From Xanthostigma xanthostigma (taxonomy: Eukaryota; Arthropoda; Insecta; Raphidioptera; Raphidiidae), in NCBI GenBank assembly GCA_963575645.1, contig OY754469.1, forward strand, positions 12,046,001 through 12,110,000: DNA of 64,000 bases, given 5' to 3'. Both the position numbers and the translations under genes were made by a program. The notes beneath the pieces are model-generated. The model had not been told where the DNA came from, did no database searches, and saw only the letters and a program-made list of their open reading frames with translations. The first letter of the stretch is position 1. Each line of letters opens with the position of its first letter. This document shows positions 1,043-57,805 of this stretch, in pieces.

Positions 1043-1320
1043 GGAAGGGTGTAGGCTTTCACGAACAGCGTTGTTCCAAATCTTCTTGGTTTCCGAGCTT
1101 GTAGGTCGTGGAATAATGGTATCGTTTCGTCTTGGCAGCTCATAGGTAAGTGTGTTTTCCCTTTATTTGTGTCAAGCTTGAGTGTGTTCTCTGGTCGGTC
1201 ATACTACGACCGAGCAGAAAACACACTCACACCGCCTTTGATAATGTTTACCGCAGTTGTAGACGAAAAGTCATGGACCAAGACCAAGAAGATTTGAGAC
1301 GTTTTGGGAGCTCTGAGCTT
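1043..1320. mobile_element. Penelope-like fragment, family B
   Basis: Shares with 44170-44300 the block GGCTTTCACG, then CCGCCTTTGATAATGTTTACC, GTAGACGAAA and CCAAGAAGATTTGA. An inverted piece of the same sequence (CAAATCTTCTTGGTTTCCG) starts near 1076, so the copy is palindromic. The segment 1239-1269 has the form of a decayed hammerhead core with stem II but GAAAA in place of GAAAC. No protein is left. It lies at the 3' side of the transporter exon 6, within the host gene. Confidence 0.5.
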
Positions 1321-1398
1321 ACCAATATAATTGCATTTATTGCATCGATGAAGAAGTTTCTCAACTGATAATCACGTGGGAAGTGAAATAAAACTTAC

Positions 1399-1691
1399 TT
1401 GTTCTAAAGATAACCGTTATAGCCGTTCCTGCAAAAACGTAATGTCTGCTTTTAACGGTGGCGCACATTGCTGACAACATCAAGAATATTCTGGAAGACA
1501 AGTCTGCAATGGCAGCGACTGTTAAACACAATGCTATTTCTTTGGAGGTGAATGCTCGATGGAAGAGTATGAACGGAGTGAGGTTCACTATTGTGATGTC
1601 CGAAAGGAAACTGAATGCACAGCCTAGGCTGATGTTGACGTACACAGGATCGGTCAGTAAAGTCAGATCCATCGATTCCACAATGGAATTA
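1399..1691 (-). CDS. Transporter exon 6 (helices 7-8)
   Basis: The acceptor is a pyrimidine-rich TTTTTTTTCAG ending at 1692. The exon enters in phase 2 (its first T completes a Cys codon) and leaves in phase 1 at ACAA|GTAAGT. It is 293 nt long. It encodes NSIVESMDLTLLTDPVYV, then two hydrophobic helices, including TPFILFHRAF and AAIADLSSRIF with the conserved Asp/Arg pair. This is the last exon visible; no continuation is seen between 1 and 1398, which holds LINE and Penelope-like debris. Confidence 0.85.
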
Positions 1692-4600
1692 CTGAAAAAA
1701 AATATGTATAGTTACTTTATTATGGAGAACAAATCTACTAAGAATTATTCACGTGAATAAACGCGTAATTTTCTCATTTAAAGAAGTTGTTTGCATTACA
1801 TATAAAAAAATAGTAAGTAAAAATCTTTGATTAACGTCTGAATAGAACTCGTCAAATAAATAAAATTGTCGACCAATTTTTATTGACAAAAATAAAAAAA
1901 TAACAAATCAATATAACACAAGATGACGTTTCGATCCGGATTTGGATCTTTTTATATTGATTTGTTATTTATTTTTTGTCAATATATTGGTCTGAGAAAA
2001 ATTGGTCGACAATTTTATTTATTTGAATAGTAAGTAAAGACAGGGCCCGATCCAGACAGGGCCGTAACGTGGATTTTGTGAGCCCTGGGCAAGACCTTCA
2101 AATTGGGCCCTCCTCAATAAAAAAAATTGAGAAAAAATTTCCCATGGTTATAGTTTCTGTTCTTTCACTTTTTTAAAGTTTAGTAGGTATATCACTTAAT
2201 AAATAAACACAAAATAAGGAATCTTTAAATTGGTCCTGTCCATATTTTTTGTAATTTTTTTTTATTTTATATTTATGAAGAAAAACGAATTAAAAATTTA
2301 TTTAAATTGCATTCTTCTTGCTTTTTTCTCCGCAAACTCATCAATTATATTATTAAAATCTATTTCTTGCACTATGTTAGATTCAATTGATATAATAGAC
2401 AGGTTCGACAAACGCTGTTGTGAGAGCGACGATCTTAAATAGTTTTTAATTAACTTCAGTTTACTAAAACTTCTCTCGTAAGAAGCGGTGGTGACTGGTA
2501 GGGTTAGAAATATTCTTAAAGCAACAACGATGTTTTGGTACGATTAGACTAATTCGAAATCATGTATACCGATGAAGCAGATGACATCGATGACAGTTAA
2601 GTTAGTTTAATCCAAGATTAATTTTTAATCTTGTTTTATAATACCGGGCCTAAGTATTGAGAATTAAATAAATATGTTTTTTTTTAAATAAAAATTCTAA
2701 TAGCATATTCTGGCTTTTTTGGGCCCCGTCTATTTGAGCCACCAGTGGTGTTACTTATATATGTGATTTGTAATATTCATTAAAATACGAATGAAAATAA
2801 TTGAGATAATTTTTATCGGGATCTTCTTGGGTCCCTCCGGGGCCCCCCTGTGCCCTGGGCCCTGGGCAAGTGCCCCTATTGCCCCTGCCTAGTTACGGCC
2901 CTGGATCCAGATATTTCACCGCTCCGAGCAAAATAATATTTGCCGTCTTTTACCCATGCGTTGTTCCATATTCCACATTTTATTTTTGTAATCTACTAAA
3001 ATATGATGTGAAATTTCAGTGATGTCAATATAATAATATATTCTAACAACTTTTGTGTAGGGTGTTTTTTTTTTTGTTTAACCATCTTTAAAATTTTCGC
3101 CGCCGACGCCGCGCCGTCCTCAATTTTACCGCCCCGGGAAATTGCCCGGTTACCCCCCCCCCTAGATCTGGCCCTGAGTAAAGAACAAGCGATCCAAAAA
3201 TTAGTTGTTAACAATTTTGTAGACAACGTCTACAGTGGCTAAAGGATCTAGAAAAACGCAATTACAGATATTAAATTTGCATTTATTGACTAACATTTCG
3301 AATGATTTACCTTCATCCTTAGACGCCATTTGTACTCTGAGGATGAAGGTAAATACTTCGAAACGTTAGTCAATAAATGCAAATTTAATATCTGTAATTG
3401 CGTTTTTCTGGATCCTTTGGTCATGTTGTCTACAAAATTGTTAACATACAAAACAATATGTGTTTCATAACAACAATAGCAAACTATTGCTACACATTTG
3501 TATTTATGTAATTAAAATTTAAAATAATTGGCATAACATAGGTAATTAATTAACCGTAATTAACGTGTTTTTCCGATGTTTAAATATAAAAACAATACAG
3601 AAAATCTATACTACATTTAACTCTACCAGACAATAAGGAAAATTTTCACCTTTGATTTTCACTTAAAAGTAACTCTTGTTTGATTGAAGGAAAAAATGTA
3701 AAAATAAGCTCTCGGAGTATGTGAAATATAGTTGCAAATAAGCTTTATTATGAAAATAATTGATTGTTCGGATGTCTAGTAGAGTAAGTGATAACTCATC
3801 CGCTGCGATAGTGGAAGTGTCGGGTTTGACAATGATATTGAAAACAAAATTATCTAATATAGCATAGTGAAACTGTAACAATGTGTGTTTCATAACAACA
3901 ATAGCAAACTCATGCTATATATTTATATATTTTTTAATATCTAGAATGTCTCGATTATGATATTGATATCGGGTTTGAATCCCAGAGAGAAAAAACATGT
4001 AACGAATGCCACAAAACTTAAAAAATGGGTAAGTATTGAAGGAATTAATTCTCTTTTGAGATATTACTGTTGAACGACGTGTAAGAAATCGAAATGATCA
4101 ATTTAAATTTAATCAATGCATAGTTTAATCCGTCTTTTATGTTAAGATGTTTGAGTGAAACTACGTTAAGAGAACTTCTAGAAAATTGTTAACACAAAAC
4201 ATTGATTACTACGATTGATGAACAAGTTTTGTTAAGAAAATAAAACATTTTTAGTTAGTGCTATGATCAAAACGTGTGCAGGTTTCGTGGTAGGTATTTT
4301 CAAGTTTAGATTAAATAAATATGAATTTCTTTTTAGGTTAAATGGCACACTTTTAAACTTAATTAAACAACAAAAATCCGGTTTTAAATTTTTCTTAAAA
4401 ATTTAGAGAGCTTTAAAATGCTTCTAGAGAGTAAAATTAGAGAGGACTTTCAATTCGTAAACTACAAAGTAGGTACGAGAAATGTTTTGGCAGAATTTAT
4501 TTTTCTCTCCAAGAATGACTATTATTTGAAGGAAATTTATTTTGATTGAGGAACAATTGAAAAAAAAAACTTTACCAGTGTAACACTTGTGGCCAACGTT

Positions 4601-7600
4601 TCGAAAAAATATATTTTCATTCTCAGGGCCTATGAACATGTATAATAAATGAACATTAACTCAGCAAAAAGTTTTTGATATATGTTTCATAGTTTGAATA
4701 AAAATAATAATATTGATTACAAATATCTTTGATTTAAATTTAGTAATTCCCGCCAGTGCCATTTTAACCCATAATAAACCCTCGTCTTTATTATTGGTAG
4801 AATAAGTTGCAGCGTTGACAAATTTGTTAATGTAAATTGTAGTTGCGTCCAATTTATACAGATATTTAGTCCAAAAAATGTTAAATATAAATTATTTAAA
4901 TGGTCAATAAATTTAATTTTTTTTATGTGTAAATAAAAAGGTTTTTTTAATCTATTACAGTTATTTTTATAAAAAAATCTTTATTTAAACATAAGCAAAA
5001 ATAGGTTTAAAGACAAATCGTGTACTGATTCTCTATAATCTATATCTACCGTGTTAAATTTCTATTTTTCAAGTATTAATATTTCAAAAACTAAGCGGTC
5101 AAAAATTTTCAAAAAATTAATTTAGTTTACATACACTATAATAATTATGATTGTATGGAAAAAAATTTATTGAAAAATCTTTATTTTTTTTCATGCGCTA
5201 ACCTCCTTAAAACTGAAAATTGTTATAAAATAACTGTAAAACTATAGTAACAAACACTGAACTGACAGAACGTGCCATGTGACGTAACACAAGACCCGCG
5301 AAAAATGGCGGCGTTCAAACAAGTCGAATTTTATCGATGTTTTAAAATTTGATTTAATAATTAGTTTGAACATTTCCAAGAGTGTTTATATTTTTTATGG
5401 TGTTATAATGATGTAAAAAGTGAATTAAAAATATAAAAAAAAATGCATGCATATACCCTATTGAAAAATCACAGGAAATTGGACAGGTTAAAGATGAGAT
5501 AACACCTTTTTAAGTATACCTAATGTACTTTTTAAATAAAGGTGTTATCTCATCTTTAACCTGTTCACTTTCCTGTGATTTTTCAATTCTTATTCAACAA
5601 TGGACATGACTACGACAAACAATATTTTATGTCCATAGGGTCTGAGGATGAAAATATATTTTTCAAAACGTTGCCACAAGTGATACACTTGTAAAACTTC
5701 TTTTTCAATTTATTGTTCCTCAACCAAAATAAATTTCCTTGAAACGTATAATTTGCAACAAAACTAATGGATTATTGTATTAAAATCTTTACCGAAATAT
5801 ACCTTTTTCTTAAAAAAAGTAAATATCGTCTGCTGACGTCTATTGATAACGTGACGTATTTTTAAAATTTACTAGCGCTTGGAACAACGGCCTTATTTAT
5901 AGATACATATTATATGAATAAAAAATTATGTTATCTTATGTTAAATTCCAAACAAAATATTTATACCAAAATCCCTTTTTCTTATCGGTGTTAGTCGTAA
6001 TATCAGGCAGAGACGACCAGTTCGGTATATTAGAGAGAGATCGGTTGAAGTTCTTTAAATTGTTTATCTTTTCATTTTCTAACGATTCAACATCACATAC
6101 GTTTCCATTTTCAGGTAGTAATTTCTCAATTTCACTGGACTTTCTTTCCTTTATAACTTCCATTAATTCTTGAGAACCACCTCTCGATAATGCTCCAGAT
6201 ATTTTACGCGGTTCTAAAAATCAACACTCTACAATCAGTCAACTGAATAAAGTTAAATTTAAGTGTTACGTTAAAGCTATCTATTTTTTTAGCCTAGATA
6301 CCTCCTAAATCAAATTTATGTAAATACTAGCGGTCCCTCCCGGTTTCACCCGGATACGATAGATATATTTTGTGTTATCGGAAAATCTGGCAAAATGTAA
6401 TGAAAAAGACTGCAGCGCAGAAATGTCGGAACTAATAGCTGTGAGCAACTTCTACCAGACTTGCTTCTGAACTAATAGCTTTTAGCAAACTCTCTCAGAT
6501 GTCACGATGTGTTATTAAAATAGTTTGTTTTTTTTTGACAAAACACCGTAATTTTGTTGAAAATATTTAATAAAAACTATCCTCTAGTCTAATTTGGACC
6601 AAGCAAGACACGTTTACAAAATTTCACTACAAACGGTTCAGTGGTTTCGGAGATTAGCGTGGACAAACATCGTAGCACGAGACTTTTATAAAGATAAAGA
6701 TATGCTGGAGCACCGGAAAGAAGAAGTGTCCAGGGCCGTAACTAGAACCTCGGGGACCCCGGGGCAAGAAGTAAAATTAGGCCCCCTACGAAGAATTTAA
6801 AAAGTGCTTTTTTTTCAATGGGTTCTTTTTTCCACACAATTTTAGAGGTAATTTGTGGAAGGGCTCTAAAAAGTAAAAAACGAGCGTGGACATCTACGAA
6901 CCCCTAAAAAGTAGGCAACGAAAAGCGGCCTTATTGTCGGTACGGCCCTGCTCGTGGCTATGAAAAAAAAACGGTCAAGTGCGAGCCGAACTCATATAAA
7001 GAGGGTTCCGTACCATTCCGTTTTTTGTGAGAACTTTAAGACTAAGATTTTTGTTTGGTTTTTCCTCTTAACTATTTTATTCGCTATTCTTTTCAAAATT
7101 TTAGATTTTGTAGATTCCAGACCATAGAGACATAAGTAACTAGAGTTCGCTAGTTCGTATGCTTGCCATAAGTGAAAGTGTCCTCAGTTGAGAGAGAGAA
7201 CGCTGCAGAAAACCCAGAAAACCAGATATTTGTTTACTCAAATCAGCATTGTTTTGTATCATTAGTTACCATAGAGATAAGGAACTTTTCTCTCTCTGAA
7301 TTGCAGACACTTTCACGGCTCACTCGCGTATTCTAGTCTAATATCTCTATGGTTTAGACTGAGCCTCACCTTAAAATTGTAATTATGTATTTATTGCAGT
7401 GCAGGGATTTTTCTCTTTTCGACATGGCGTCTAAATTTTATAAAAGTCGAAAGAGAAGTTCATAAATAGCACGACGACAAAACTTACCTTCTGTATGAAT
7501 TATTTCATCCAATATCAATGGCTTATTGTTGTCCACTTGGTCTGGCTTCTTTCTCTTAACCATATGTCGTTCCACAGGTTGCATTATAACACAACCCAAC

Positions 7601-10600
7601 AGACAGTGTAAGTTAATTGCTGCGATTATTGCAACGGTTCCTCGGAATCCGTATTCCTCGAGACACAACTCGATCAACATCGGGAAACAAATGACTATCA
7701 TGCCGATACCTGTCTGTGTGATACCGTTTATCATCGGTCTCCTTTCGACAAAATAATTGTTCAACGATGCGAACGTTACTGGCGTAATAAGGCCGAAACC
7801 AATTCCTGAAACCAGCGTTTTTTTTAAATTCCAACTCAATATCTAGTTTTTATCCGACTATGGTATGCAGCGTTGCCAGTTTTTTTTTTTTGCCAAGTCG
7901 GGATTTTGGAACGCTTTGAGTGAAAACAGCGGGATTCTTTCGTCGAAAGCGGGACATAGTAAAAAAAAAAACGTATATAATCAGAAGTTTTCAAATACCT
8001 ATTTATCTTTTTATTTGAATTAAAATTACGTTTACGTGACAATAGATAGCAAAAATAGCCATAGAAAATGTATTTTAATAAAAATATAATATTTTAAATC
8101 AGATTTACCCTATTGTTAAATAGTTGAGTCTTATTCGTCTTCAGAATAAAAATAAAAAAACAGAAATCAAAACCAAAAAAGTTTTATTCATTAGAAAAAT
8201 ATGGCGTTTCAAACAATAGTCTGTGGAGTGAGTTACAATTAATTGCAACTTACAATAAGAGAATAATTATTTATAAGAATTACTTATTCATGATATTTCT
8301 GTGAAGATTTAACTTCTTTTAAAGTTATCCCCGAGTTATCCCCGAAAAGCGGGACTGAGCCTGTCCCGCGCGGGACATTTAATTTTGATTTAAAAATCGG
8401 GACGTCTGGCAACGCTGCTGGTATGTGATACTTGAGTAGGTGTGCCATGCAGGGATGCGGGAAATAGGAGACACTCTCCAGAGTGTTCAAGGTCACCGAA
8501 ATGAAACTCACACGAATAGGAAAATGTCATTGTACAGTACTATGTAATATGGCTAGGATTGGCGGAGGTCATTTATTGAAGTCAATAAAACAAGGATGGC
8601 GTAGGAAGGCAAATGAAAAAAAAAATACGTGTGGCACTCGGGGACTGCCGCGGTAAAGCTATTGCATATTCTTTTTAGGTCTTTAAGTTTTTCTTCTCTA
8701 TAAAACGAAAATAGCTAGGTATAAATAATAAGGTATAAATAGTGTAATTACACACCAAAACAATTATTCATTCAAAAAATTTGAACAAAAAGAACGATAT
8801 TAAGAGTATGATCATAGAATTTCGCGCGATGTACATTTATATAGATATAATATCATATATACTTTCTCTGCACATAACCTAAATAATTTAGGTTATTTTT
8901 ATAGCAGTATTATATATAAATTCATTTATACACAAATAAAGATAGAATCAGTTATGAGCAGTTATGCAGTTATGAGCACACAAACACCGTGCCGAAGTCT
9001 GCCGAACTGAAACGACGTTAGACGATGTACGGCTGTCAACGCCGCACCGCTGTGCCGGTCGGAGTGGGGGGTGTTAGGTTTTATTCGTTACGGAATGGGT
9101 GTTAGGTTTTTTTTCGTTACGGAATTTCTTGATTCGGTCGCCGCGCTCAAAGCCCGCTATAGAAGCTATGCAATAGCTTAAAAATCCATATGTAAGACAA
9201 AAGCACAGGAAGGCAACACAAAATTGGCTTCAGAAACGGTTACCCCCTTTCTGGAACTTTCTCAAGACTTGTGGGCGAAGCTAAAAGGAATGGTTATGAA
9301 TTTTGCAGTATGTTCGTTAAGTGATTTTCATAATCGAGGTGTCATTCGATTTGTGTTAATTACGTGAGTGCTCTCGGCTAAAAAAATAGTTTTTGTGTAA
9401 AAAATCCTGGTATGAAATTTTTTTTCTGGCCAAATCGAAAGAATAATTTGATAAGATTTCAAAAATATATACTTTTAAAGTAGTCGGGTTTAAGTTCTTT
9501 TAAGTTTAATTTTATTGTACCTTGAAGTATGCCATTTGCTATGGCAAGTTCGGTTATTGAATCAACGAAAATTGTCAAAACACTTCCGGTGAAAAATAAT
9601 AACGCCCCTGTAACACCGACTTGTCTCAACGAAAACATTGTTGTTAGTTTATTTGTCAACAAACCTAGAAGAATAGCAATTATGTAATAATGCATCAATA
9701 CTTTTCTTAAAATTCTGTATCTTAATATCTTACCCATCAAAGCGCACGTTGTTCCAAAAATGCAAAAAATTAATGTTGAAATACTAGTTTCGTCCCCTCT
9801 CTCTTTTAAAAAATTACTGAAAACTAATCCGAAAGCTTGCCAAGGACCTACTATACATCCCTGAAAAATATTTTGTTTTTGAAATGATTTATTTTCGGGC
9901 AGTGAAAAATAATGAAAAATCTAGTTAGAGACAGGATTCCGCACAATGCTTATGGGATTTGGTTTTCGGTTAAATTGATCGAAAATGGTTTTATTTTATT
10001 ATTTAAACAACACTAAAAAAAGTGTCTATGGACGCATAGCCTAAAAACCAATAGATTTTTAGCTACAGATATCTTTAGCTAGATTTTAGATATAGGGATA
10101 TCCATTGAATTTACAAACATGTACCATGTTCAATTTTTGTGCTTTTTTTAGAAATAGAAGAATAGTCGAAATCTAGCTAATGTTGGAAGGCGTCACCCTG
10201 TATAAAATAATAATGTCATATTCGGATTCAGCATACTCGAAAAAATATTTCTAGAGCTTAGGATTTTTTAAGATTGTGGATTCAATGGATAATCCCTATA
10301 TATATCAACAATCTTGCTAAACATATATGTAGCTAAAAATCTATTGGTTTTTAGGCTACGCGCCCACGGACACTTTTTCTTAGTGACCTTTAAACTGTAA
10401 AATAAAACTATTTTCGATCAATTTAACCGAGAACCAAATTCCATAAGGTTTGTGCGGGATCCTTTGGAAATATTCATCTACGGTGTTCTTTTATTGTAAG
10501 TAGCTATATATTTTAAAGTTTTCATTTCTTTAATACGAAATGAAGACATTTTTTATTCATTCACCTATAGGTCACGCTATTGATGAATGAATGAATAACT

Positions 10601-11939
10601 GAAAATTAAAGACGCTCGACAACAGCTGACGTCATAATACATTTCATAAGCGTCTATATTCAACTGTATAAAAATTTAATTATTTTATGTCAATCGCAAC
10701 TGAAGATGTATGTAGTTAATATAAAAGACTATATCTCCTTCAGAATCTTTGAAAAAAATTACTGTGGCATATATTAGAACTGTCGACATTAAAAAAAATA
10801 GATTACCTATTTTTTGTCACCAAAATTAATAGATTACTTTTTTGTTACCAAAAAATCCGCAATCATTATTCAGGTGTTCATATTAGATTAGATTGTAAAT
10901 ATGGACGCCCGAAAGCTGGGGTCAACACCATCTTAATTGTTCATATTAATTTACATAAATGTTAATGCGAAAACATTAAAAATTAAAATCTACTGCATTT
11001 TAATATTCCAAAGTTTTACTGTTGATTTTTAAATATAATTATAATTATTTTCATTGAGATTGTAAATTATAAGCTGATCAATAAAGAACCTTGCACAAAC
11101 CTTCTGAGATTTAGTTTTCGGTTAAATTGAACTAAAATGACATTATTTTTTAGTTTAAAGGTCACTAAGAAAAAGTGTCCATGGGCGCATAGCCTAGAAA
11201 CCAATAGATTTTTAGCTGCAGATATGTGTAGCGAGATTTTAAATATAGGGATATGTTTTCGAGTGCGCTAAATCCGAATAATATGTCATTAGTATTTTAT
11301 GCAGGCTGACATCTTCCATAATTACTTAATTTTCGACTATTTTTCTATTTCTAAAAAAAAGCACAGAAGTTGAACATGGAATGTGTTTGTGAATTCAATT
11401 GATTTAAACAATAAAATAAAACCATTCTCGATCAATTTAACCGAGAATCAAATCCCATAAGGTTTGTGCGGGATCCTTTGGTAAATTTTGTTTGGATTGA
11501 TTTCGAATAGTAAAAACAAAAACACGTGAAAATTCTACAAAATATTTTCTCTTCTCAACGATCGTTTCGGACATTAAGTCCGTCATCAGGAGTACAGACT
11601 AGTCTGTACTCCTGATGATGAACTTAATGTCCGAAATAATCGTTGAGAAGAGAAAATTAGAATTTTCACGTGTTTTTTGTTTTAAATATTTGTTATTGAT
11701 CATGTTCTACCAAGTGCCGAGGGAAAAATGAGTGCAAATTGAATTGATTTCGTTTCAAAATACATTTTCAAACACAAAATTTAAACCTAGAACATCGGTT
11801 TATTTTTCTATATTTTAAAAAATTCACACCGACAGGAAAATCATAAAATAATACCTACAAAAACTAAACACATCGCCGCTGCTATCATGTAGCCCCATCC
11901 GCCTTCCGGCGGCACAAGATCGTTTTTTGAGACCGTCAT
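1399..11939 (-). CDS. SLC16-type monocarboxylate transporter-like protein (gene, 3' end outside window)
   Basis: Six exons join with matching phases (0, 1, 1, 1, 2) into 403 full codons plus one base. The product is a plasma-membrane major facilitator expected to carry monocarboxylates or related small organic solutes. Diagnostic features are PPEGGWGYMIA at residues 10-20 (the SLC16 N-terminal motif before helix 1), YFVERRP at 135-141 (helix 4/5 motif), EEYGFRGT at 167-174, a polar cytosolic loop of about 100 residues (roughly 205-305), and DLTLLTDPVYVN at 314-325 entering helix 7. Helix 8 keeps Asp369 and Arg373 in the spacing of the Asp/Arg pair of MCT1. The Lys of helix 1 important in MCT1 is not present (GPWQAF, 32-37). 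Start chosen: the ATG at 11937-11939, a few residues before the motif. Helices beyond about 8 or 9 are missing because the gene runs off position 1. Introns are about 2.0 kb, 69 nt, 1.7 kb, 1.3 kb and 4.3 kb and are full of MITEs. Family assignment is firm; the substrate is unknown. Confidence 0.9.
1809..2038. mobile_element. Short Penelope-like element, family A, copy 1 with 13-bp target duplication
   Basis: The element body is 1822-2025, flanked by AATAGTAAGTAAA at 1809-1821 and 2026-2038. It starts with AATCTTTGATTAACGTCTGA and ends TTTTATTTATTTG. It is largely palindromic: AAATTGTCGACCAATTTTT recurs inverted near the other end. The minus strand at 1925-1950 has stem II and GAAAC of a hammerhead core, but the CTGAAGA part is deleted here. 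It lies in intron 5 of the transporter. Confidence 0.75.
2049..2911. mobile_element. hAT DNA transposon derivative with 8-bp target duplication
   Basis: The perfect duplication GATCCAGA lies at 2049-2056 and 2904-2911. The body 2057-2903 starts CAGGGCCGTAAC and ends GTTACGGCCCTG, a typical hAT terminal inverted repeat. It contains the C-terminal end of its own transposase on the minus strand (2298-2543). The rest of the transposase is deleted. It lies in transporter intron 5. Confidence 0.88.
2298..2543 (-). pseudogene. hAT transposase C-terminal dimerisation region (truncated)
   Basis: An 81-codon open stretch ends at a natural TAA (2298-2300). It contains VALRIFLTLPVTTASYERSF, then KLKLIKNYLRSSLSQQRLSN, and near the end EIDFNNIIDEFAEKKARR. 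This is the conserved C-terminal region of hAT transposases of the zinc-finger MYM-type 1-like group, where catalytic-domain end and dimerisation segment meet. It is preceded by a stop codon in frame and no N-terminal part, so it is a remnant of a defective element. The protein would have acted in the nucleus on the CAGGGCCGTAAC ends that bound this element. Confidence 0.85.
2912..3207. repeat. GC-rich hAT-like debris in intron 5
   Basis: A run of CG-rich sequence at about 3098-3175 (CGCCGACGCCGCGCC, poly-C, TAGATCTGGCCCTG) resembles the right end of another CAGGGCC-type hAT element, but no left end or duplication is visible. Nothing coding is seen. Confidence 0.3.
3208..3445. mobile_element. 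Palindromic Penelope-like element with hammerhead-like cores
   Basis: Arms of about 110 bp run from GTTAACAATTTTGTAGACAA (about 3208) to the matching inverse ending about 3445. The right arm carries CTGAGGA at 3337-3343, a GAAG/CTTC stem II and GAAACG at 3360-3365, followed by TTAGTC. The left arm carries the decayed mirror image on the minus strand (3294-3322, TAAGGA and GAAATG). It lies in transporter intron 5. Confidence 0.65.
3446..4530. other. Intronic sequence without recognised gene
   Basis: AT-rich. The only structure noted is a direct repeat (TGTGTTTCATAACAACAATAG) at about 3458-3479 and 3885-3906. No exon-like stretch fits the transporter. Confidence 0.4.
4531..5740. mobile_element. 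Inverted-repeat element with hammerhead-like ends
   Basis: Inverted arms of about 110 bp: the left runs from AAGGAAATTTATTTTGATTG to about 4640, the right from about 5625 to AAATAAATTTCCTT at 5740. The left arm on the minus strand (4597-4625) reads CTGAGAA, an A/T stem and GAAACG. The right arm on the plus strand (5642-5670) reads CTGAGGA with the GAAA changed to CAAA. The inside is AT-rich and contains a second, separate hairpin at 5460-5586. Confidence 0.6.
5460..5586. repeat. Long hairpin (MITE-like palindrome)
   Basis: Arms of about 50 bp begin ATTGAAAAATCACAGGAAA and end with the inverse. They share GGTTAAAGATGAGATAACACC, separated by about 25 nt. The arms are near-identical, suggesting a young insertion inside the 4531-5740 element. 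No duplication is identified. Confidence 0.6.
5967..6213 (-). CDS. Transporter exon 5 (central cytosolic loop)
   Basis: The acceptor is TTGATTTTTAG ending at 6214 and the donor is TTTTG|GTATAA. The exon is 247 nt, entering in phase 1 and leaving in phase 2. It encodes a charged loop without hydrophobic segments: EPRKISGALSRGGSQELME, then EKLLPENGNVCDVE, ending DKKKGF. Such a variable loop between helices 6 and 7 is usual in SLC16 proteins. Joined to exon 6 it reads KKKGFCNSIVESMDLTLL, which fits related insect proteins. A same-length open frame on the plus strand is a shadow. Confidence 0.8.
6325..6700 (+). repeat. Dispersed repeat E (ACTAGCGGTCCC start)
   Basis: It begins ACTAGCGGTCCCTCCCGGTT and runs through AACGGTTCAGTGGTTTCGGAG to GCGTGGACAAACATCG. 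The same sequence occurs inverted at 28715-29099, at matching length. The two copies share the CTATTAGTTCAGAAGCAA-type motifs. A retroposon-like or Helitron-like short repeat; the class is not resolved. It lies in transporter intron 4. Confidence 0.6.
6731..6950. mobile_element. Small hAT-like MITE
   Basis: It begins CAGGGCCGTAACTAG and ends GTACGGCCCTG, the same ends as the larger hAT at 2057-2903. The flanking 8 bp do not match well, so insertion boundaries are less certain. Intron 4. Confidence 0.55.
7122..7352. mobile_element. MITE with long terminal inverted repeats
   Basis: It starts CCATAGAGACATAAGTAACTAG and ends AATATCTCTATGG. The arms of about 75 bp share AGTGAAAGTGTC and GAGAGAGA blocks in inverse order. 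Intron 4. The superfamily is unknown. Confidence 0.5.
7488..7805 (-). CDS. Transporter exon 4 (helices 4-6)
   Basis: The acceptor is GCTGGTTTCAG ending at 7806 and the donor GAAG|GTAAGT at 7487. The exon is 318 nt, phase 1 to phase 1. It encodes GIGFGLITPVTFASL, YFVERRPMINGITQTG, LEEYGFRGTV and GCVIMQPVERHM, followed by a polar tail. Each of these blocks has a counterpart in SLC16 transporters (helix 4-5 motif and the YGFRG loop before helix 6). Confidence 0.92.
7860..8425. mobile_element. Non-autonomous hAT element in intron 3
   Basis: The body 7868-8417 starts CAGCGTTGCCAG and ends CTGGCAACGCTG. The flanks ATGGTATG and CTGGTATG agree at seven of eight positions. The inside carries GGGACA/GCGGGA blocks in inverse order near both ends. 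No transposase is readable. Confidence 0.75.
8570..9180. repeat. Intron 3 sequence with a GC-rich block and a short tandem duplication
   Basis: AAGCTATTGCATA near 8656 recurs inverted near 9160-9180, suggesting a terminal-repeat element. Inside, 8985-9140 is GC-rich, and GGTGTTAGGTTTT plus CGTTACGGAAT is duplicated in tandem at about 9068-9126. No coding potential is recognised. Confidence 0.4.
9521..9664 (-). CDS. Transporter exon 3 (helices 2-3)
   Basis: It follows a 69-nt intron whose acceptor is ATTCTTCTAG, and leaves in phase 1 at TTCAAG|GTACAA. It encodes GLLTNKLTTMFSLRQVG, then a hydrophobic helix GALLFFTGSVLTIF, then ITELAIANGILQG. This matches the helix 2-3 region of SLC16 proteins. 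Without the 69-nt intron the reading would carry 23 extra residues not expected in the family. Confidence 0.85.
9734..9860 (-). CDS. Transporter exon 2 (helices 1-2)
   Basis: The acceptor is AATATTTTTCAG and the exon is phase 0. It encodes GCIVGPWQAFGLVFSNFLKE, then RGDETSISTLIFCIF. The donor is ATGG|GTAAGA at 9733. The block corresponds to the end of helix 1, the extracellular loop with the charged motif, and helix 2. The position of the MCT1 helix-1 lysine is occupied by an uncharged residue. Confidence 0.88.
9933..10465. mobile_element. MITE family D, copy 1
   Basis: Long inverted ends: GGATTCCGCACAATGC at the left and TTGTGCGGGATCC at the right, followed inward by CGGTTAAATTGATCG and ACCAATAGATTTTTAGCTAC. 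The same family is at 11083-11480, 17430-17943 and 33894-34370. No coding capacity. This copy lies in transporter intron 1. Confidence 0.7.
11083..11480. mobile_element. MITE family D, copy 2 (shorter)
   Basis: Same ends and inner blocks as 9933-10465 (GGTTAAATTGAACTAAAATG left, TCAATTTAACCGAGAATC right) but shortened in the right half. It sits about 0.6 kb from copy 1 in the same intron. Confidence 0.68.
11515..11690. mobile_element. Near-perfect palindromic Penelope-like element
   Basis: Arms of about 80 bp meet at ACAGACTAGTCTGT (11594-11607), running outward to AACACGTGAAAATTCTA and its inverse. Each arm has one hammerhead-like core pointing outward: the left one (minus strand) is intact, the right one (plus, 11612-11640) has mutations in the second stem strand and GAAAT instead of GAAAC. 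Intron 1. Confidence 0.75.
11554..11592 (-). ncRNA. Hammerhead-ribozyme-like motif, best copy
   Basis: On the minus strand, in order: CTC (stem I), CTGATGA core, one extra C, GGAC-TTAAT-GTCC (stem II and loop), GAAA core, C-GATC-G (two-base-pair stem III with A-U), TT, then GAG pairing back to CTC. All catalytic-core positions of the hammerhead consensus are present. The cleavage site would follow the second T of GTT. The extra base between the core A and stem II departs from the textbook form. Hammerhead motifs are known in terminal repeats of Penelope-like elements. Activity is not shown here. Confidence 0.65.
11859..11939 (-). CDS. Transporter exon 1 (start codon and SLC16 motif)
   Basis: ATG at 11937-11939. 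It encodes 27 residues, MTVSKNDLVPPEGGWGY followed by the start of helix 1, and ends in phase 0 at TTT|GTAGGT. A second possible donor four bases on (GTATTA) would break the phase. The PPEGGWG block just before the first helix is the family signature. No upstream in-frame start is more convincing. A 5' untranslated exon farther upstream is possible. Confidence 0.85.
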
Positions 11940-23055: not shown

Positions 23056-24030
23056 CCAGTCAATTGAGTGACGGGACCATTCCAACAATGTTGACATTTG
23101 AAATAATATAATATTGAAAATAAAGTTTTTGTCATCGCGTGCGGTGTCGCGGGTAACGGCTAGTATTAAATATAATTATATTTGCTATTCATTTGCATGG
23201 TTACCTAACCTACATGTTTCACGTCATGTAAAAATTTATCAAAGCATGCTTAAATAATTTCTTGCTGACAGATCTACAGAACAAAGACCAGCTGATTTTT
23301 TTATTTTCCAAATATTTCCGAATCTACAAAGTTTAGAAAACAAATTTTTCTTAAAAAAATAAATACAATAATAAACCGTTATGAAAAGTATACCATCATT
23401 ACATAAAAAAATAACCAAATCTTTGATTAACGTCTGATTAGAACTCTTCAATAAATAAAATTATCGACCAATTTTTCAGACAATATATTAACCAAAAAAT
23501 ATATATAATTAATAAATTAACGTTTCAATCCGGATTTGGATCTTCTTCAGAACTGATCTAAAAAATATAAAAAATAATTAATATTTAAATTTTAAAGATT
23601 TTATAAAAAGCTAATTAGAAGTTAAATATTAATTATTTTTTATATTTTTTAGATCAGTTCTGAAGAAGGTCCAAATCTGAATTGAAACGTTAATGTATTA
23701 ATTATATATTTTTTGTTAATATATTGTCTGCAAAATTGGTCGATAATTTTATTTAATAAAAAAATAACGTTACAGCATATATCTCTCTTGCGTATGCGCC
23801 GATTTTCCCCAAAAACAATAGGGCTCTTCATAATTGCATATCAAATATTCTCCTAAAATTTGGTTTCAATCCACTCATCTGTTTGACCTGTATCGTGTAT
23901 ACAAACAGACGCACAGACTTTTTCCAAAATCATGTTTTTTGGATTCTGGGGACCTCTAAACGAAAAAATAATGAAAAATTTGGACCTAAATTAGTACCAT
24001 TCCTCATTTATGGTGTTGGAATGGTAAAAA
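23056..24030 (-). repeat. Repeat family FH, long copy split by a family A element
   Basis: Read on the minus strand it matches 25903-26590 from end to end: the CCACTTGTGG-type start region, GTATACTTTTCATAACGG, and the final ACCCGCGACACCGCACGCG. It is interrupted at 23403-23768 by a short Penelope-like element with a 13-bp duplication. Confidence 0.7.
23403..23768. mobile_element. Penelope-like family A, copy 2, with 13-bp target duplication and two hammerhead-like cores
   Basis: The body 23416-23755 is flanked by ATAAAAAAATAAC at 23403-23415 and 23756-23768. The left arm on the minus strand (23521-23550) reads CTGAAGA, A, GATCC/GGAT stem, GAAACG. The right arm on the plus strand (23660-23689) has CTGAAGA, A, a diverged stem and GAAACG. 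The cores face outward from a 100-bp AT-rich centre, and outer arms share AATTATCGACCAATTTT. Inserted into an FH repeat, whose uninterrupted counterpart is at about 26190-26220. Confidence 0.85.
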
Positions 24031-25225: not shown

Positions 25226-25334
25226 ATTATTCAAATCTTTAATTAACGTCTGAATAGAAATAAATAAAATTGTCGATCAATATATAGTCTGAAAAAATTG
25301 GTCGACAATTTTATTTATTTGAAAAGAATTATTC
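25221..25334. mobile_element. Penelope-like family A, copy 3 (short)
   Basis: The body of about 25233-25322 has only the two outer arms (AATAAAATTGTCGATCAA and TTGGTCGACAATTTTATT) with the centre and hammerhead core deleted. Flanks AGAAAATTATTC and AAAGAATTATTC agree at 10 of 12 positions. Confidence 0.65.
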
Positions 25335-29159: not shown

Positions 29160-29288
29160 ATATTTATTCACTAAACATATTTATTGGTCAATGTTTCGGC
29201 ATGAATTTTTGTCTTCCTCACGACTTTTACTAGTTTCTTGAGACAAAAAAATTATGCCGAAACATTGACTATTAAATATATTTATTCA
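29160..29288. mobile_element. Small palindromic Penelope-like element, 11-bp target duplication
   Basis: The body 29171-29277 is flanked by ATATTTATTCA on both sides. Arms TATTGGTCAATGTTTCGGC and its inverse each carry GCC-GAAACATTGACC. The left core on the minus strand has TGAGGA, A and a GACA-started stem; the right one is truncated before the CTGA. Confidence 0.65.
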
Positions 29289-35320: not shown

Positions 35321-35324
35321 ATAC

Positions 35325-40889: not shown

Positions 40890-41165
40890 AATATAATAAC
40901 GGAACAATTGGAACCTTATTCTGTGCAATATATTTATTTATGTTGCCAACGTTTCGGCTGTAACTTAAGATTTCTTCAGGGCTCTATAATCGACAAATTA
41001 AAAACTTTCTTAAATTTTTTATTTGTCTAATAAATGATTAATCATGTATTATATTTGTCAGTTATGGAGCCCTAAAGAAGTCTTAAGTTATAGACGAAAC
41101 GTTGACAACATAAATAAATATATTGTACAGAATAAGGTTCCAATTTTCCAGTTATTATATTATCA
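40890..41165. mobile_element. Palindromic Penelope-like element
   Basis: Arms of about 95 bp from ATAATAACGGAACAATTGG to its inverse. The minus strand at 40950-40979 reads CTGAAGA, A, a long weak stem and GAAACG. The plus strand at 41072-41101 reads CTAAAGA, A, GTCT/AGAC stem, GAAACG. Both are followed by TTGNCAAC. Confidence 0.65.
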
Positions 41166-42235: not shown

Positions 42236-42375
42236 GTAATAATAAAAATGATAATAAGATTTTGGACAATTACTAGTTAACAAATGTTTATTTACAATGA
42301 AACGTTCCTGAATTAGTAAATAAACATTTGTTAACTAGTAATTGTCCAAAATCTCATTATCAGTTTTATTATTGC
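42236..42375. mobile_element. Palindromic MITE nested in the hAT element
   Basis: Arms of about 58 bp (AATAATAAAAATGATAATAA to ACAAATGTTTATTTA) around a 22-bp centre with GAAACG and CCTGAA. The centre may be a last trace of a hammerhead-like core. Confidence 0.6.
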
Positions 42376-43999: not shown

Positions 44000-44130
44000 T
44001 TTTAGTGAAAATTTTTTATTTTAAAAAAATTCACGTTTCGACAATATCGTTATTATTATCAGGTAAAACATGATGATGATAACGATGTTGTCGAAACATT
44101 TTAATTTTTTTCAGTAAAAAATTTATACTA
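44000..44130. mobile_element. Palindromic Penelope-like element
   Basis: Left arm, minus strand 44034-44062: CTGATAA, T, a long A/T stem and GTC-GAAACGTG. Right arm, plus strand 44071-44100: GATGATGATAACGATG and TTGTC-GAAACATT. Outer arms share AAAATTTTTTA and TTTTAGT words. Confidence 0.55.
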
Positions 44131-44169
44131 AAAATAAATCTCGTGTAGGTACGGAATAATTATAATATA

Positions 44170-44300
44170 TCCAAGTTTGTAGGCTTTCACGGCGATTACA
44201 TCGCCTTTGATAATGTCTACCGCAGTTGTAGACGAAACGTCAGGTAGAAATACCAATGGGCCACGGTATACAAGCCCGGAAACCAAGAAGATTTGAATTA
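44170..44300 (+). mobile_element. Penelope-like fragment, family B, with hammerhead-like core
   Basis: TTTGATAA, T, GTCTAC-CGCAGTT-GTAGAC stem II, GAAACGTC at about 44205-44240. It is followed by GGTATACAAGCCCGGAAACC and AAGAAGATTTGAA. It matches 1043-1320. Open frames across it are accidental. Confidence 0.6.
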
Positions 44301-47806: not shown

Positions 47807-48080
47807 AAATAATATTCATCAAGTAAATAAAATTGTCGACCAATTTTTCTCAGACCATACGATATATTGACAAAAATGATAAAAATACAAATCAATATAA
47901 CACAAGATGACGTTTCGATCCGGATTTGGATCTTCTTCAGAAATATCTAAAAAATATAAAAATTAATTAGTATTAAGTAATAGATTTCACGCAGGATTGA
48001 AACTTTGAATGATTCAAAAAATTTTATTTACTTGAAGAGTTCTATTCAGACGTTAATCAAAGATTTGAAATAATATTCAT
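47807..48080. mobile_element. Penelope-like family A, copy 4, 13-bp target duplication
   Basis: AAATAATATTCAT lies at 47807-47819 and 48068-48080. The body 47820-48067 has one clear core on the minus strand (47912-47941): CTGAAGA, A, GATCC-AAATCC-GGATC, GAAACGTC. The right half is diverged. It ends GACGTTAATCAAAGATTTG. Confidence 0.85.
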
Positions 48081-48817: not shown

Positions 48818-49419
48818 TTCTTTTATTTCTGATTTATGTACCTACATTTTTGTAATATTAAATATTTACAATAATTTTTCGCATATTTACACACAATACA
48901 TATTTATTAATTATTAATTTTAAATCTAATTTATTGTGTTTGCTAAAATTTGTGTGTATTTTTACAAAACGGAAGTAATAACTGTATGCCGAATTAAAAA
49001 AATGCTAGTACTGATGGTTTGTTTATTTTGGTAAAATATCAAGAAAAGTTTAATTAATTTTAAATAAATGCCACAGGCAGCTGTCTACTGTTTAACTGCA
49101 GAGAAAGGAATTCTGAGAGAAAAAAATATATTAGTTCATCTAGCATTAGTATTAATAACAATGTTTTGTTTTGTGTTTAAAATTAAAAATCTGATGCATC
49201 TATTTCCGAATTGGATGTATATATTTTACGGCTAGAACCCGAAGTGCGGCTACATCTAGTTTTAGCCAGTTAGAACTAGGTTTAGCCACTTCCTCTTGGT
49301 TAAATCTAGTATTAATTTTGCCGTTAATAAAATTTTTGTATCAGAAAATAATAACACATTTTTATTTATTATTACACTAATTACTAATCATCCTTATATT
49401 TTTTAGCCTAATTGTTATT

Positions 49420-49915
49420 CTGAAGAAGATCCGAATTCGGATTGAATGTTAATTAATTGAATTATAATTATATAATTAATGCCAATAAATAACTACCATT
49501 TGTCATTTTATTTTAAATTTAAATTAACTGAATGTCTCCATAATAAATTATTAAAAAATTACATATTATAAATGAAATACATAATATTACCAATGCTAAG
49601 TTATTCTTTAAGGTATTTATCATTTTTATTAATGTAATTTATTATATGTATATGTATTTATTGTATTTTAATTTATATTATGTATTTTTTGTAGATCCTG
49701 AGGAAGTTTTAATATATAAAACGAAACGTTGCGATTAAAAATATAGCTTAACAGCATATATCTTTATTGATCTATTTATCCTCTGAAAAATAATATTATA
49801 AAATTAATAGATCTGAAACACATATAAAATAAATTATATAATTTGTTAATATATTGTCTGAAAAATTGGTCGATAATTTTATTTATTGAAGAGCAATCAG
49901 ACGTTAATCAAAGAT
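49420..49915 (+). mobile_element. Composite of two Penelope-like ends
   Basis: 49420-49450 has CTGAAGA, A, GATCC/GGAT stem and a decayed GAATG. 49698-49728 has CTGAGGA, A, GTTTT-AATATAT-AAAAC, GAAACG, from a different family. The right edge, 49850-49915, is the family A outer arm (AATTGGTCGATAATTTTATT) with GACGTTAATCAAAGATTTG. Boundaries and order of insertion are unclear. Confidence 0.5.
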
Positions 49916-51770: not shown

Positions 51771-52122
51771 TAAAATATATTATAAAGAAACTCTTCACCT
51801 ATATATTAGTATAAGAATAAGATAATGGACTTTCAAAATCAATTATTTAATTGACGACGTAAATACAAAATTACTTTTGTGTAAACCAAACTTTACTTAG
51901 CTGGAAACATTAGTAAATTTGTTTTCTCGCATAATATAATATTTTTGAAGAAATCCACCCTTTGGCTGTGCTTAAAATATATAGGTAATTTAATTTACAC
52001 CATACTTTAATTTCGCGCGTAATGTGAAAGTTTATTATAGACATATACAGGTACAGTTCGCAGTATTTAATATCTGTAAATTTATTTCTATCACTGTAAA
52101 ATGCCAAAATATCTATATATAG

Positions 52123-53010
52123 GATGAGTCAGACCACCCGTACCGTTAGTTTTTTTCGAAAACGATTAGTCGTAGAGAGTTGTGTCAAAAATCTGCATTA
52201 TAAAAGCCCTAATGAAGAATCGAATGGTGATATTTTTTTCCCCGGAAAGGTCGGCTTCCCTATTAGTTTGCTCCAGAATGTTCAGAACTCCGGAATATTA
52301 AATGGCACGATAGGTCGAAAGTGGTATTGTTGAAAAGATCTTTAAAATATAAGCAAGTTTTGTAGGACATTTTTTTTTATTACTGCCACCCCTGTTAAGT
52401 AATATTCGTTTGAAATTATTAAATTAACATGTCATGATAACGAACTTAATTTTAAAAGTTGGCATTTAAAATCTAGTTCCCTAATTAAACAATAATAAAT
52501 GTCACAATAAATTTTCAATTATTGCAATTTTTTTTGTCGGAAAATATTTAGGGGTACCCATAGCATATCTAGAAGAGCTCATCAGTGTTTAGAAGTAAAT
52601 GAAAAACAGTTTAAACATTTATGGCATTGTTTAATAACTAGATTTTAAATGCCGACTTTTAAAATTAAGTTCGTCATTATGACATGTTAATTTAATAATT
52701 TCAAACGAATATTACTTTACAGGGGTGGCAGTAACAAAAAAAAATGTCCTACAAAACTTGCTTATTTTTTAAAGATCTTTTCAATAATACCACTTTCGAC
52801 CTATCCGGCCATTTAATATTCCGGAGTTCTGAACATTCTGGAGCAAACTAATAGGGAAGCCGACCTTTCCGGGGAAAAACAATATCACCATTTGATTTTT
52901 CATTAGGGCTTTTATAATGCAGATTTTTGACACAACTCTCTACGACTAACCGTTTTCGAAAAAAACGAACGGTACGGGTGGTCTGACTCATCCTGTATAA
53001 CTCATCCTGT
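52123..53010. mobile_element. Long foldback element, copy 2
   Basis: AGGATGAGTCAGACCACCC to the inverse GGTGGTCTGACTCATCCTG. Structure and length equal copy 1 at 35325-36200. The two copies differ mainly by point changes and small indels. The right end is followed by repeated ACTCATCCTGTAT. Confidence 0.75.
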
Positions 53011-56671: not shown

Positions 56672-57299
56672 ATAGTCGCACACGCAGTACACAGCTGACA
56701 CAGCGAAACAACGAGTGTACAGTATATGCGCGCACACACACATAGCGGTGGCGTTGAAGGGGCGTGATGCCGTTTCCGTCACGGCATGGTTTCGCTGCCA
56801 AACGCGCCAATAGGTGATTCACATCAATAAAAAAGATGTCGGACGACTCCATTAATTGTGGAGCCTTCATTTAAATAGAACGAACACATAGTCGCACACG
56901 CAGTACACAGCTGACACAGCGAAACAACGAGTGTACAGTATAAGCGCGCGCGCACACACATAGCGGTGGCGTAGAAGGGGCATGATAGAGTGTGATGCCG
57001 TTTCCGTCACGGCATGGTTTCGCTGCCAAACGCGCCAAAAGATGTCGGACGACTCCATTAAATGTGGAGCCTTCATTTAAATAGAACGACAACATAGTCG
57101 CACACGCAGTACACAGCTGACACAGAGAAACAACGAGTGTACAGTATAAGCGCGCGCGCACACACATAGCGGTGACGTAGAAGGGGCATGATAGAGCGTG
57201 ATGCCGTTTACGTCACGGCATGGTTTCGCTGCCAAACGCGCCACAAGATATCGGATGACTCCATTAAACGTGGAGCCTTCATTTAAATAGAACGAATAC
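56672..57299. repeat. Tandem repeat, three units of 206-216 bp
   Basis: Units start with ATAGTCGCACACGCAGTACA at 56672, 56888 and 57094. Each has CGCGCACACACATAGCGG, GCCGTTTCCGTCACGGCATG (itself partly palindromic) and TCCATTAA...GTGGAGCCTTC. Overlapping open frames on the minus strand repeat with the unit and drift in frame, so they are not genes. Confidence 0.85.
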
Positions 57300-57690
57300 A
57301 ATATGATTTGATTGTTATGCGACAATCTTACGGTATAAAATGAACAATTGAAGTTGCTGTAATAGGACTTGTTCTAGAATCTACAGAATCGTGAAGTTGT
57401 AACGGTGTACTTGAAACTTATATTATAATCGCAACCGGTGCCTACACATTCCTTATCAATGCTCAATGTGGCAGCGTAATAAAGCCGGAGGCTAATCTTT
57501 TACATTCACAAATTATATACCGCCTAAGAAACAATCGTAAAGTTAGGATAAAGTCATTCATAGCGTTAAACCGATGCTGAAAGGAACTACGTGCCACTTT
57601 GATCACTAAATAATGAGATACCATGACCATATTACATTAGCAAAATTGTCTTGTTTATATAATGAAAAACAAGTGTTTTCATATAATATA

Positions 57691-57805
57691 CAGTGTAACC
57701 TCTTTTATTATTATTATTTTATTATTGTTATTTATTTTACAGTACCTACTTGAAAAAGTCTAAGTATAAAGACGAAACGTCGGTAATAAATAAATCTATA
57801 TCTCA
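57691..57805 (+). mobile_element. Solitary pogo end and Penelope-like tail
   Basis: ACAGTGTAACCTCTTTTATT at about 57690 equals the left end of the pogo element 290 bp to the right. After it, 57749-57779 reads CTTGAAAAA, GTCT-AAGTATAA-AGAC, GAAACGTC, a hammerhead-like core with a damaged CTGANGA. Confidence 0.5.

Follow-up and report, generated by a model that had tools for sequence, protein, structure and literature searches.

Exact-core hammerhead-like motifs in the genome of Xanthostigma xanthostigma, including those of the window (the whole stretch of 64,000 nucleotides analyzed), nearly always carry one extra base between CTGANGA and stem II, together with covarying stems and a self-complementary stretch, and such motifs lie beside ORFs with RT and GIY-YIG domains. 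They are best read as belonging to an already known type of element in which a variant of the core is fixed: judging from sequence, the sites are very probably decayed non-coding copies of the pseudo-LTR of an EN+ Penelope-like element (PLE) with a minimal type I hammerhead, the inherited one-base bulge of which would be tolerated or mildly useful.

All eight sites named in a preceding sequence-only reading exist in the window, and its claim of exactly one unpaired base before stem II held at the five intact ones (3337(+) T, 11589(-) C, 23550(-) A, 47940(-) A and 49698(+) A; stem II of 4–6 bp). These are 5/5 of the window motifs that combine CTGANGA and GAAAC with a stem II of 4 bp or longer; among window motifs with an intact core and GAAAC, no qualifying stem was found at offset 0 or 2–5, and dinucleotide shuffles of the window (n=60) gave one such hit in total. 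The claim failed at 40979(-), where stem II is absent at all offsets 0–4; the inverted partner of this site, 41072(+), has a 4-bp stem after one A. Nor do 44062(-) and 44207(+) show CTGANGA followed by one T, their cores being decayed (CTGATAA and TTGATAA, respectively), although a single T does precede the remaining stem at 44207 and at 44070(+), the partner of 44062(-).

The covariance model R1, built from copies outside the window and used with a cut-off of E<0.01, recovered 14 window copies, 13 of them complete (Table 1). Stem II of at least 4 bp follows one base in nine of these 13, the stem being of at most 3 bp at every offset in the other four (23655, 29185, 40943 and 11607), while at offset 0 none of the 13 has a stem of more than 2 bp and so none of at least 4 bp. 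The base after the core letters in the complete matches was A in eight, T in four and C in one, a tally that is no independent test of the extra base because the model contains that column. Descriptor hits were at offset 1 in 60/61 cases (window, sample and fetched loci, part of the loci having been picked by an offset-free pattern). Rfam hammerhead models gave no match in the window at the gathering score, and none of the 24 matches at E<=10 was to a hammerhead family.

Table 1. Hammerhead copies and associated insertion in the window; E values are those of model R1, and "new" marks copies absent from the earlier list.
Feature	Position	Strand	Evidence
Hammerhead copy, extra T, stem II GAAG/CTTC, inside palindrome 3206-3446	3332..3372	+	R1 E 1.1e-8
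Decayed inverted partner (CTAAGGA, extra T)	3282..3322	-	Sequence reading and palindrome; no model hit
Hammerhead copy, core CTGAGAA, extra T; left arm of 1.2-kb inverted pair; new	4590..4631	-	E 7.4e-9
Hammerhead copy, extra T, GAAA to AAAA; right arm of 1.2-kb inverted pair; new	5637..5677	+	E 1.4e-7
Hammerhead copy, extra C, GGAC/GTCC; 8-nt palindrome ACGATCGT replaces stem III	11552..11594	-	E 0.0032
Inverted partner of 11552..11594, T after core, decayed stem II; new	11607..11649	+	E 0.00068
Hammerhead copy, extra A, GATCC/GGATT	23514..23555	-	E 2.5e-13
Inverted partner of 23514..23555, extra A, 3-bp stem II; new	23655..23696	+	E 2.7e-10
Palindromic insertion between 13-bp repeats ATAAAAAAATAAC (23403-23415, 23756-23768); 36-nt tail, left end only	23416..23755	.	
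Decayed hammerhead copy, core GTGAGGA, stem II lost, A after core; palindrome 29172-29284; new	29185..29226	-	E 2.8e-8
Hammerhead copy, A after core, stem II lost	40943..40984	-	E 1.4e-5
Inverted partner of 40943..40984 (CTAAAGA), extra A, GTCT/AGAC; new	41067..41108	+	E 1.8e-6
Decayed copy (CTGATAA), T after core; palindrome 43968-44167	44028..44067	-	Weak model hit, E 2
Decayed partner of 44028..44067, extra T, 6-bp stem	44071..44100	+	Weak model hit, E 4.6
Decayed copy (TTGATAA), extra T, 6-bp stem II GTCTAC/GTAGAC	44202..44246	+	Weak model hit, E 0.28
Hammerhead copy, extra A, GATCC/GGATC	47904..47945	-	E 1.3e-13
Hammerhead copy, extra A, GAAACGTT changed to GAATGTT; new	49415..49455	+	E 6.6e-7
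Hammerhead copy, extra A, 6-bp stem II GTTTTA/TAAAAC	49693..49735	+	E 6.4e-10
Decayed copy by the right limit of the earlier reading, A after core	57746..57786	+	Weak model hit, E 0.36
Copy truncated at palindrome center (5' core part missing); palindrome 1852-2026, 13-bp repeat, tail at one end; new	1920..1958	-	E 3.8e-6

Throughout the 623-Mb genome, a scan whose conditions included the core, GAAAY and an A-started palindrome yielded 20,029 exact-core motifs (121 for the reversed-pattern control), and in the first 100 listed of these the best stem II start lay one base after the core in 77, two bases in one, five in one and directly after it in none, with 21 lacking a 3-bp stem. The view that this is a conserved variant, not random decay, is thereby supported, and the base did not turn out to be absent from most intact genomic copies, as far as exact-core motifs represent them: beside the 0/100 at offset 0, the G class, into which any canonical G10.1 would fall, comprises only 256/20,029 motifs. 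Against it, pairing is best at offset 0 for up to 11 of the first 100 motifs in the G class. The extra base is A in 68% (by subtraction), T in 30%, G in 1% and C in 1% genome-wide, C or G following CTGANGA in 422/20,029 motifs. Position 17 was T or C in 21/21 distinct motifs whose loci had been chosen without the pattern GAAACGTY, 28 further motifs being uninformative here since their loci were picked by that very pattern. An IMG/VR control of at least 120 stretches (stem of at least 4 bp) gave, among the matches listed and with repeats of the same motif included, 14 at offset 0, three at offset 1, one at offset 2 and two at offset 3.

Covariation likewise favors a stem II one base downstream. 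The offset-1 structure has 86.6% of its cells paired, as against 49.5% in its best slid version, and a covariation score of 0.754 (shuffle mean 0.273; 0/500 shuffles as high), whereas for stem II alone 90.4% of cells are paired at offset 1 and 46.6% directly after CTGANGA. Pairs 2–4 of the offset-1 stem II and pairs 1–2 of stem I lie above every shuffle; stem I pair 3 just equals the shuffle maximum, stem I pairs 4–5 are not above shuffles, pairs changed on both sides show no excess (6 vs. 5.5 in shuffles), and a few off-register pairs also exceed the shuffles, less strongly. The motifs are a core variant and not a canonical hammerhead, stem II not standing directly after A9.

The comparison with Penelope-like elements proved apt, in that loci coding for Penelope-type proteins carry the extra base too. 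Elsewhere in the genome, RVT_1 and GIY-YIG domains share one ORF in L173 (804 aa) and L171 (578 aa), and offset-1 hammerheads occur in 6/12 GIY-YIG loci (two of the loci overlap) and in 3/4 stretches around long frames, with five stem II families in coding loci; the DNA examined held no offset-1 hammerhead in 6/12 GIY-YIG loci and 1/4 ORF stretches. A relaxed scan of the coding loci gave 14 hits at offset 1, two of them counted twice owing to the overlapping loci, and five at other offsets. In L173, the same hammerhead recurs, at 3951 and 1232 on the minus strand and at 6924 in inverted orientation, a pseudo-LTR order of direct plus inverted, and two RTs aligned to the first RT were 36% and 32% identical to it. 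Three viral-collection and nine prokaryote-collection loci (three-RT alignment, 23–39% identity) were taken, by their titles and scores, as other RTs and not PLEs. For the stem II families of the window itself, no direct link to an ORF was obtained. The several families are indeed distinct in sequence, but "unrelated", as they had been called, does not fit them, and common descent explains the shared base better because they share one architecture.

Penelope-style insertion structure is seen in part of the copies, flanking repeats with a one-sided tail at p<0.05 being found in 5/18 of the inverted pairs tested within the window and 14/20 of those tested outside it; the repeats measure 10–25 bp, the gaps (11–52 nt) are at one end only, and the inner truncation varies. 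Five insertions in the window show clear repeats plus a tail; among them, complete hammerheads occur in 23452-23755 alone, the rest including a truncated hammerhead at 1852-2026 and a GAAACGTT remnant at 42238-42373; the tailed insertions 25258-25320 and 61775-61916 lack a model match. A diverged empty site for the insertion 23416..23755 lies within 25900-26573. Five hammerhead palindromes of the window, as well as two longer inverted pairs, yielded no repeat at p<0.05. The window also contains long palindromes lacking any hammerhead match.

We propose that the pseudo-LTR hammerhead would run from a short stem I through CUGANGA, the extra base (nearly always A or U), a stem II opening with G10.1-C11.1 (or G-U) and GAA to a self-complementary stretch, with U or C at the cleavage position; this short stretch (mostly ACGU) could supply stem III only by pairing with its counterpart in a second molecule or a second tandem copy, and the extra base would bulge out as a single inherited nucleotide between A9 and pair 10.1-11.1, with catalysis either tolerating it or gaining mildly from it. 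Tandem PLE transcripts might then cleave themselves in dimeric form, possibly aided by PLE protein. Reverse transcription might be primed from both cut strands and begin internally, immediately 3' of the ribozyme, which would leave head-to-head palindromes tailed at one end.

The minimal type I hammerhead of PLEs was reportedly described by Cervera and De la Pena (2014) and by Lunse et al. (2017); no description of an extra base in PLE hammerheads was identified in the other literature searched. Compared via the available parts of two further papers (PMC7761336, PMC6155905), the PLE minimal hammerheads resemble the motifs here in lacking a normal stem III, with dimeric cleavage proposed, in their pseudo-LTR location and in their thousands of dispersed copies, the extra base being near-universal among the exact-core motifs here. 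One extra base at the same position occurs, according to the part available of PMC3705267, in the plus-strand hammerhead of Chrysanthemum chlorotic mottle viroid (A10, between A9 and G10.1), where A is natural, U faster, and C and G harmful, although that hammerhead has loop-loop contacts and belongs to a viroid, not a transposon. A core insertion known from a viroid hammerhead appears fixed in transposon hammerheads, some twenty thousand of them in one genome, which offers natural variation for asking about the role of the extra base and a descriptor for motifs unreported by the Rfam search of the window; searches demanding stem II directly after CUGANGA would miss most such motifs.

As to the insertions, EN+ Penelope of Adineta vaga (PMC3846280, in the part available) likewise has head-to-head inverted pseudo-LTRs with a palindromic junction, target duplications (8–10 bp, vs. 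repeats of 10–25 bp here) and a 31-bp tail on one inverted pseudo-LTR, the word hammerhead being absent from the main text there. Poseidon of Anolis carolinensis (PMC11167929) carries its hammerhead close to where the ORF begins, with cutting and extension of both strands and with internal RT starts accounting for the tail, as in our proposal, its main text stating no extra base. Metazoan retrozymes share type I hammerheads in non-coding repeats (PMC7229834, PMC7761336, parts available), but are small tandem repeats with canonical hammerheads; here, neighboring copies are mostly inverted (minus-then-plus in 21/25 neighboring listed copies of the genome), and the pattern CTGATGAG..CGAAAC, a test for the canonical type I hammerheads of retrozymes, occurs 47 times against 19 in the control, and the identity was rejected.

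Several other explanations may be weighed against this one. It is a serious possibility, if short of an even chance, that the base is a neutral relic, a bulged founder PLE having expanded and later families having inherited the base with activity unaffected: their common architecture makes all the families look related, the copies are evolving in the manner of non-coding DNA, an AT-rich genome favors A and T anyway, and some G-type families exist. The persistence of the base in PLE families whose RTs are 32–36% identical to the first one aligned, and the rarity of C and G, which matches the harm reported for them in the viroid hammerhead (PMC3705267, in part), speak against such a relic, both weakly because the copies are not independent. 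Counting against the main proposal, too, non-coding copies are no independent evidence of selection. A somewhat less probable view would make the Penelope hammerheads a separate core class, CUGANGA-W, unreported by Rfam hammerhead models, in which a selected, near-obligatory A/U insert after A9 is tuned for dimeric or protein-assisted cleavage of tandem PLE transcripts.

That coding, not catalysis, fixed the extra U, with A9-U-G10.1 serving as the PLE ORF start codon, is very unlikely, even though CTGANGATG occurs in most listed T-type motifs: ATG is present in 4/5 ORF-linked families read, but a stop follows after three (L173, L167), nine (L171), 17 (L168) or 25 (L170) codons, the fifth family (L161) has no ATG at that site, and the position is occupied by A in about 68% of motifs. 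In the ORF-linked families that were read, this origin was rejected on the early stops or the missing ATG. It is more improbable still that the palindromes are foldback DNA transposons (MITEs) having captured hammerhead sequences. Their terminal-inverted-repeat look and the hammerhead-free long palindromes would suit such an origin, which is nevertheless disfavored by the length of the flanking repeats, the one-sided gaps, the varying inner truncation, the empty site and the similar ribozymes adjoining RT/GIY-YIG ORFs. Two microRNA matches, at 3267-3393 and 42256-42355, were set aside as falling on palindromes with scores below the gathering ones.

Exactly one base separates the CTGANGA core from stem II in all five exact hammerhead motifs of the window (64 kb, A+T of 68%) that were retrieved as CTGANGA, a stem of 4 bp or longer and GAAAC in that order, with no exact motif at an offset (i.e., the number of unpaired bases between the core and stem II) of 0 or 2-5 in this 64-kb scan, and with only one match in total over 60 dinucleotide shuffles. 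The sequence-only reading had ascribed the extra base to hammerhead-like copies at eight sites, which holds for the five exact motifs, the remaining sites being decayed copies: the minus-strand copy at 40979 has lost its own stem, its plus-strand partner at 41072 forming one after a single A, and the copies at 44062 (minus strand) and 44207 (plus strand) lack core letters. A covariance model built from 29 motif copies, all lying outside the window, returned 14 window matches at E<0.01, 13 of them complete and carrying A (8), T (4) or C (1) after the core letters, in a column that is built into the model; counted without the model, the offset-1 stem is 4 bp or longer in 9 of these 13, the offset-0 stem never exceeds 2 bp, and 4 have at most 3 bp whatever the offset. 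An Rfam search of the window did not report a hammerhead; Rfam microRNA precursor matches at 3267-3393 and 42256-42355 scored under the gathering threshold and fall on palindromes.

Hammerhead motifs, palindromes and repeats of the window
Feature	Position	Strand	Remark
Exact hammerhead motif	3337	+	one base before stem II
Exact hammerhead motif	11589	-	one base before stem II
Exact hammerhead motif	23550	-	one base before stem II
Exact hammerhead motif	47940	-	one base before stem II
Exact hammerhead motif	49698	+	one base before stem II
14th model match	1920-1958		cut at palindrome centre
Hammerhead palindrome	3206-3446
Hammerhead palindrome	11506-11690
Hammerhead palindrome	23452-23755		flanking repeats, p<0.05
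Hammerhead palindrome	40888-41163
Hammerhead palindrome	43968-44167
Longer inverted hammerhead pair	4525-4639/5629-5744
Palindrome	1852-2026		flanking repeats, p<0.05
Palindrome or inverted pair	25258-25320		flanking repeats, p<0.05
Palindrome	42238-42373		flanking repeats, p<0.05
Palindrome or inverted pair	61775-61916		flanking repeats, p<0.05
Tandem repeat	56831-57300		206-bp units, 2.3 copies, 95% matches

In the X. xanthostigma genome, the extra base is nearly fixed among Penelope-type hammerheads. Across 623,323,696 bases in 28 contigs (window included), CTGANGAN{9,26}GAAACGTY occurs 20,029 times (9,937 + 10,092) versus 121 times for the reversed-pattern control, such pattern counts possibly being lower bounds for repeats. 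Whether the base might be absent from most intact copies genome-wide, a possibility that the sequence-only reading had itself raised, was checked on the first 100 listed motifs, all within one 5-Mb stretch of contig C1: the longest stem II (at least 3 bp) lies at offset 1 in 77, at offset 2 in one, at offset 5 in one and at offset 0 in none, 21 having no stem II of that length. CTGANGA is followed by A in 13,681 of the 20,029 motifs (a figure obtained by subtraction), by T in 5,926 (control 13), by G in 256 (control 31) and by C in 166 (control 50), these counts and class splits covering exact cores with GAAACGTY only; a looser pattern that omits the terminal CGTY matched 57,594 times versus 29,421 in its control, with offsets unsorted. 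In the hammerhead numbering used here (A9, G10.1, 17), a canonical G10.1 would appear in the G class; of its first 100 listed members, 56 have their stem at offset 1, 11 have it at offset 0 and 33 lack one. Extrapolation from this class puts motifs with G10.1 and no extra base at no more than about 28 of the 20,029, fewer still if three same-length GGAAAAT copies are mere T-to-G changes. A genome search for the canonical form CTGATGAG..CGAAAC gave 47 matches (control 19), and two copies (G000 C1:5417291 and C1:46574219) have a canonical-looking core, CTGATGAGTCCCAATAAGGACGAAAC, that lacks the extra base.

Covariation favours a stem II that begins one base after the core in an alignment of 29 motifs from outside the window, all with GAAACGT and with differing stem II regions, the selection of which dropped repeated stem II strings as well as families whose stem III differs (GAAATGTACAT, GAAACTAGT); one member (L140) has its stem placed further in. 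When stem I (3 bp) is combined with an offset-1 stem II, 86.6% of cells are paired (60.8% in shuffles), 60 cells are changed on both sides (20.9) and the covariation score is 0.754 (0.273), none of 500 shuffles being as high in any of the three; the count of pairs in which both sides change (6 versus 5.5; 296/500) is not above shuffles in this alignment. Sliding the partners by one column lowers pairing to 49.5% or 26.2%, and setting stem II directly after CTGANGA leaves 46.6%. None of 500 shuffles matches pairs 2-4 of the offset-1 stem across 77 distinct stem II strings, and the nearly invariant pair 1 is not above shuffles, with one offset-0 and two offset-2 pairs also above shuffles, less strongly. 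A scan free of stem conditions (73 records, 48 distinct) again supports the offset-1 pairs 2-4 of stem II, along with pairs 1-2 of stem I, in which pair 3 only ties with the shuffle maximum and pairs 4-5 fail. Position 17 is T or C in all 21 distinct motifs from loci chosen without GAAACGTY, in which the core is followed by A (10), T (10) or C (1). As a palindrome after GAA was a scan condition, the palindrome tally (ACGT 42, ATGTACAT 3, ACGATCGT 1, ACTAGT 1, ATAT 1) shows variety, not frequency.

Minimal type I hammerheads, thought to work as dimers, are described in Penelope-like elements (PMC7761336, PMC6155905), and a GIY-YIG search of the genome gave at least 37 matches (150 scored of 521 candidates). 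The open frames of L173 (804 aa) and L171 (578 aa) each have matches to RVT_1 as well as GIY-YIG, L167 matching RVT_1 only and L170 GIY-YIG only; two reverse transcriptases share 36% and 32% identity with the first, and two scans for related proteins gave weak matches only. A relaxed scan placed offset-1 hammerheads in 6 of 12 GIY-YIG loci (L161, L167, L168, L170, L171, L172; the L170 and L172 motifs are the same, two being counted twice) and in three (L173, L174, L176) of the 4 stretches that surround long frames, with 14 matches at offset 1 in total and 5 at other offsets (0, 2 and 3; L169 has three of the 5), and with five stem II families in the coding loci, four with T and one with A. The L173 hammerheads lie directly ahead of the 804-aa frame and 250 nt past its end, with an inverted copy further on; from the core onward, the direct copies are identical over 119 nt and the inverted copy over 85, a 34-nt difference that fits a tail.

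Many window copies are head-to-head inverted pairs within palindromes, and 25 listed neighbouring genome copies less than 1,500 bp apart comprise 21 minus-then-plus, 3 plus-plus and 1 plus-minus arrangements. The palindrome at 23452-23755, bounded by identical 13-bp repeats, lies within a larger inverted repeat as an insertion in its left arm (23041-24027); the right arm (25900-26573) has the same site without the insertion and with one diverged repeat copy. Flanking repeats beat random windows at p<0.05 in 5 of 18 window palindromes or inverted pairs (with and without hammerheads), each time lying at most 3 nt from one end and at a distance of 25-36 nt from the opposite end, complete hammerheads being present in 23452-23755 alone among these five; the 13 failing this threshold include five hammerhead palindromes and two longer inverted pairs. 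In the genome, 20 stretches around minus-plus pairs were sampled (the 21 neighbouring pairs minus one 1,142 bp apart), and 14 have flanking repeats at p<0.05 (from 400 random pairs, uncorrected for 20 tests), all 14 with a one-sided gap (11-52 nt versus -8 to 2); below the threshold, 2 show the same gap and 4 have none, repeat lengths being 10-25 bp. Comparable head-to-head inverted pseudo-LTRs are described for Adineta vaga (PMC3846280), in which the duplications measure 8-10 bp and one of the pseudo-LTRs bears a 31-bp tail, and Poseidon of Anolis cuts and extends both strands, starts reverse transcription internally, has a tail corresponding to the stretch separating two start sites, and carries a hammerhead cleaving only with protein added (PMC11167929). 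The palindrome at 42238-42373, with a 10-bp flanking repeat, a 27-nt one-sided gap, GAAACGTT near its centre and no CTGANGA core, is possibly another truncated Penelope insertion. The palindromes at 31095-31381 (287 bp), 35307-36211 (905 bp) and 52116-52999 (884 bp), without a model match at E<0.01, are foldback elements of unassigned class.

Most simply, the extra base was inherited from the source elements of these hammerheads. A viroid hammerhead has a documented single extra base between A9 and G10.1, at which A lowers the rate moderately, U raises it and C or G is harmful (PMC3705267), and insertions beside CUGAnGA amount to at most one or two bases in the alignments described in PMC10085705. 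G and C are scarce at this position in the genome (422 of 20,029), which agrees with these kinetics, an agreement that is only suggestive because the copies are non-independent and the genome is AT-rich; some G-type families are present in the genome. In the families read, a coding reason for the base (ATG) does not hold. L091, an IMG/VR contig, has a hammerhead-like motif in which stem III is closed (by eye) and CTGATGA is followed by one extra T, so the insertion may not be confined to Penelope elements. Elsewhere in the window, by eye, the open frame at 45485-45874 resembles a HARBI-type transposase N-terminus, and the minus-strand frames at 7438-7842 and 9459-9920 resemble parts of a membrane transporter.
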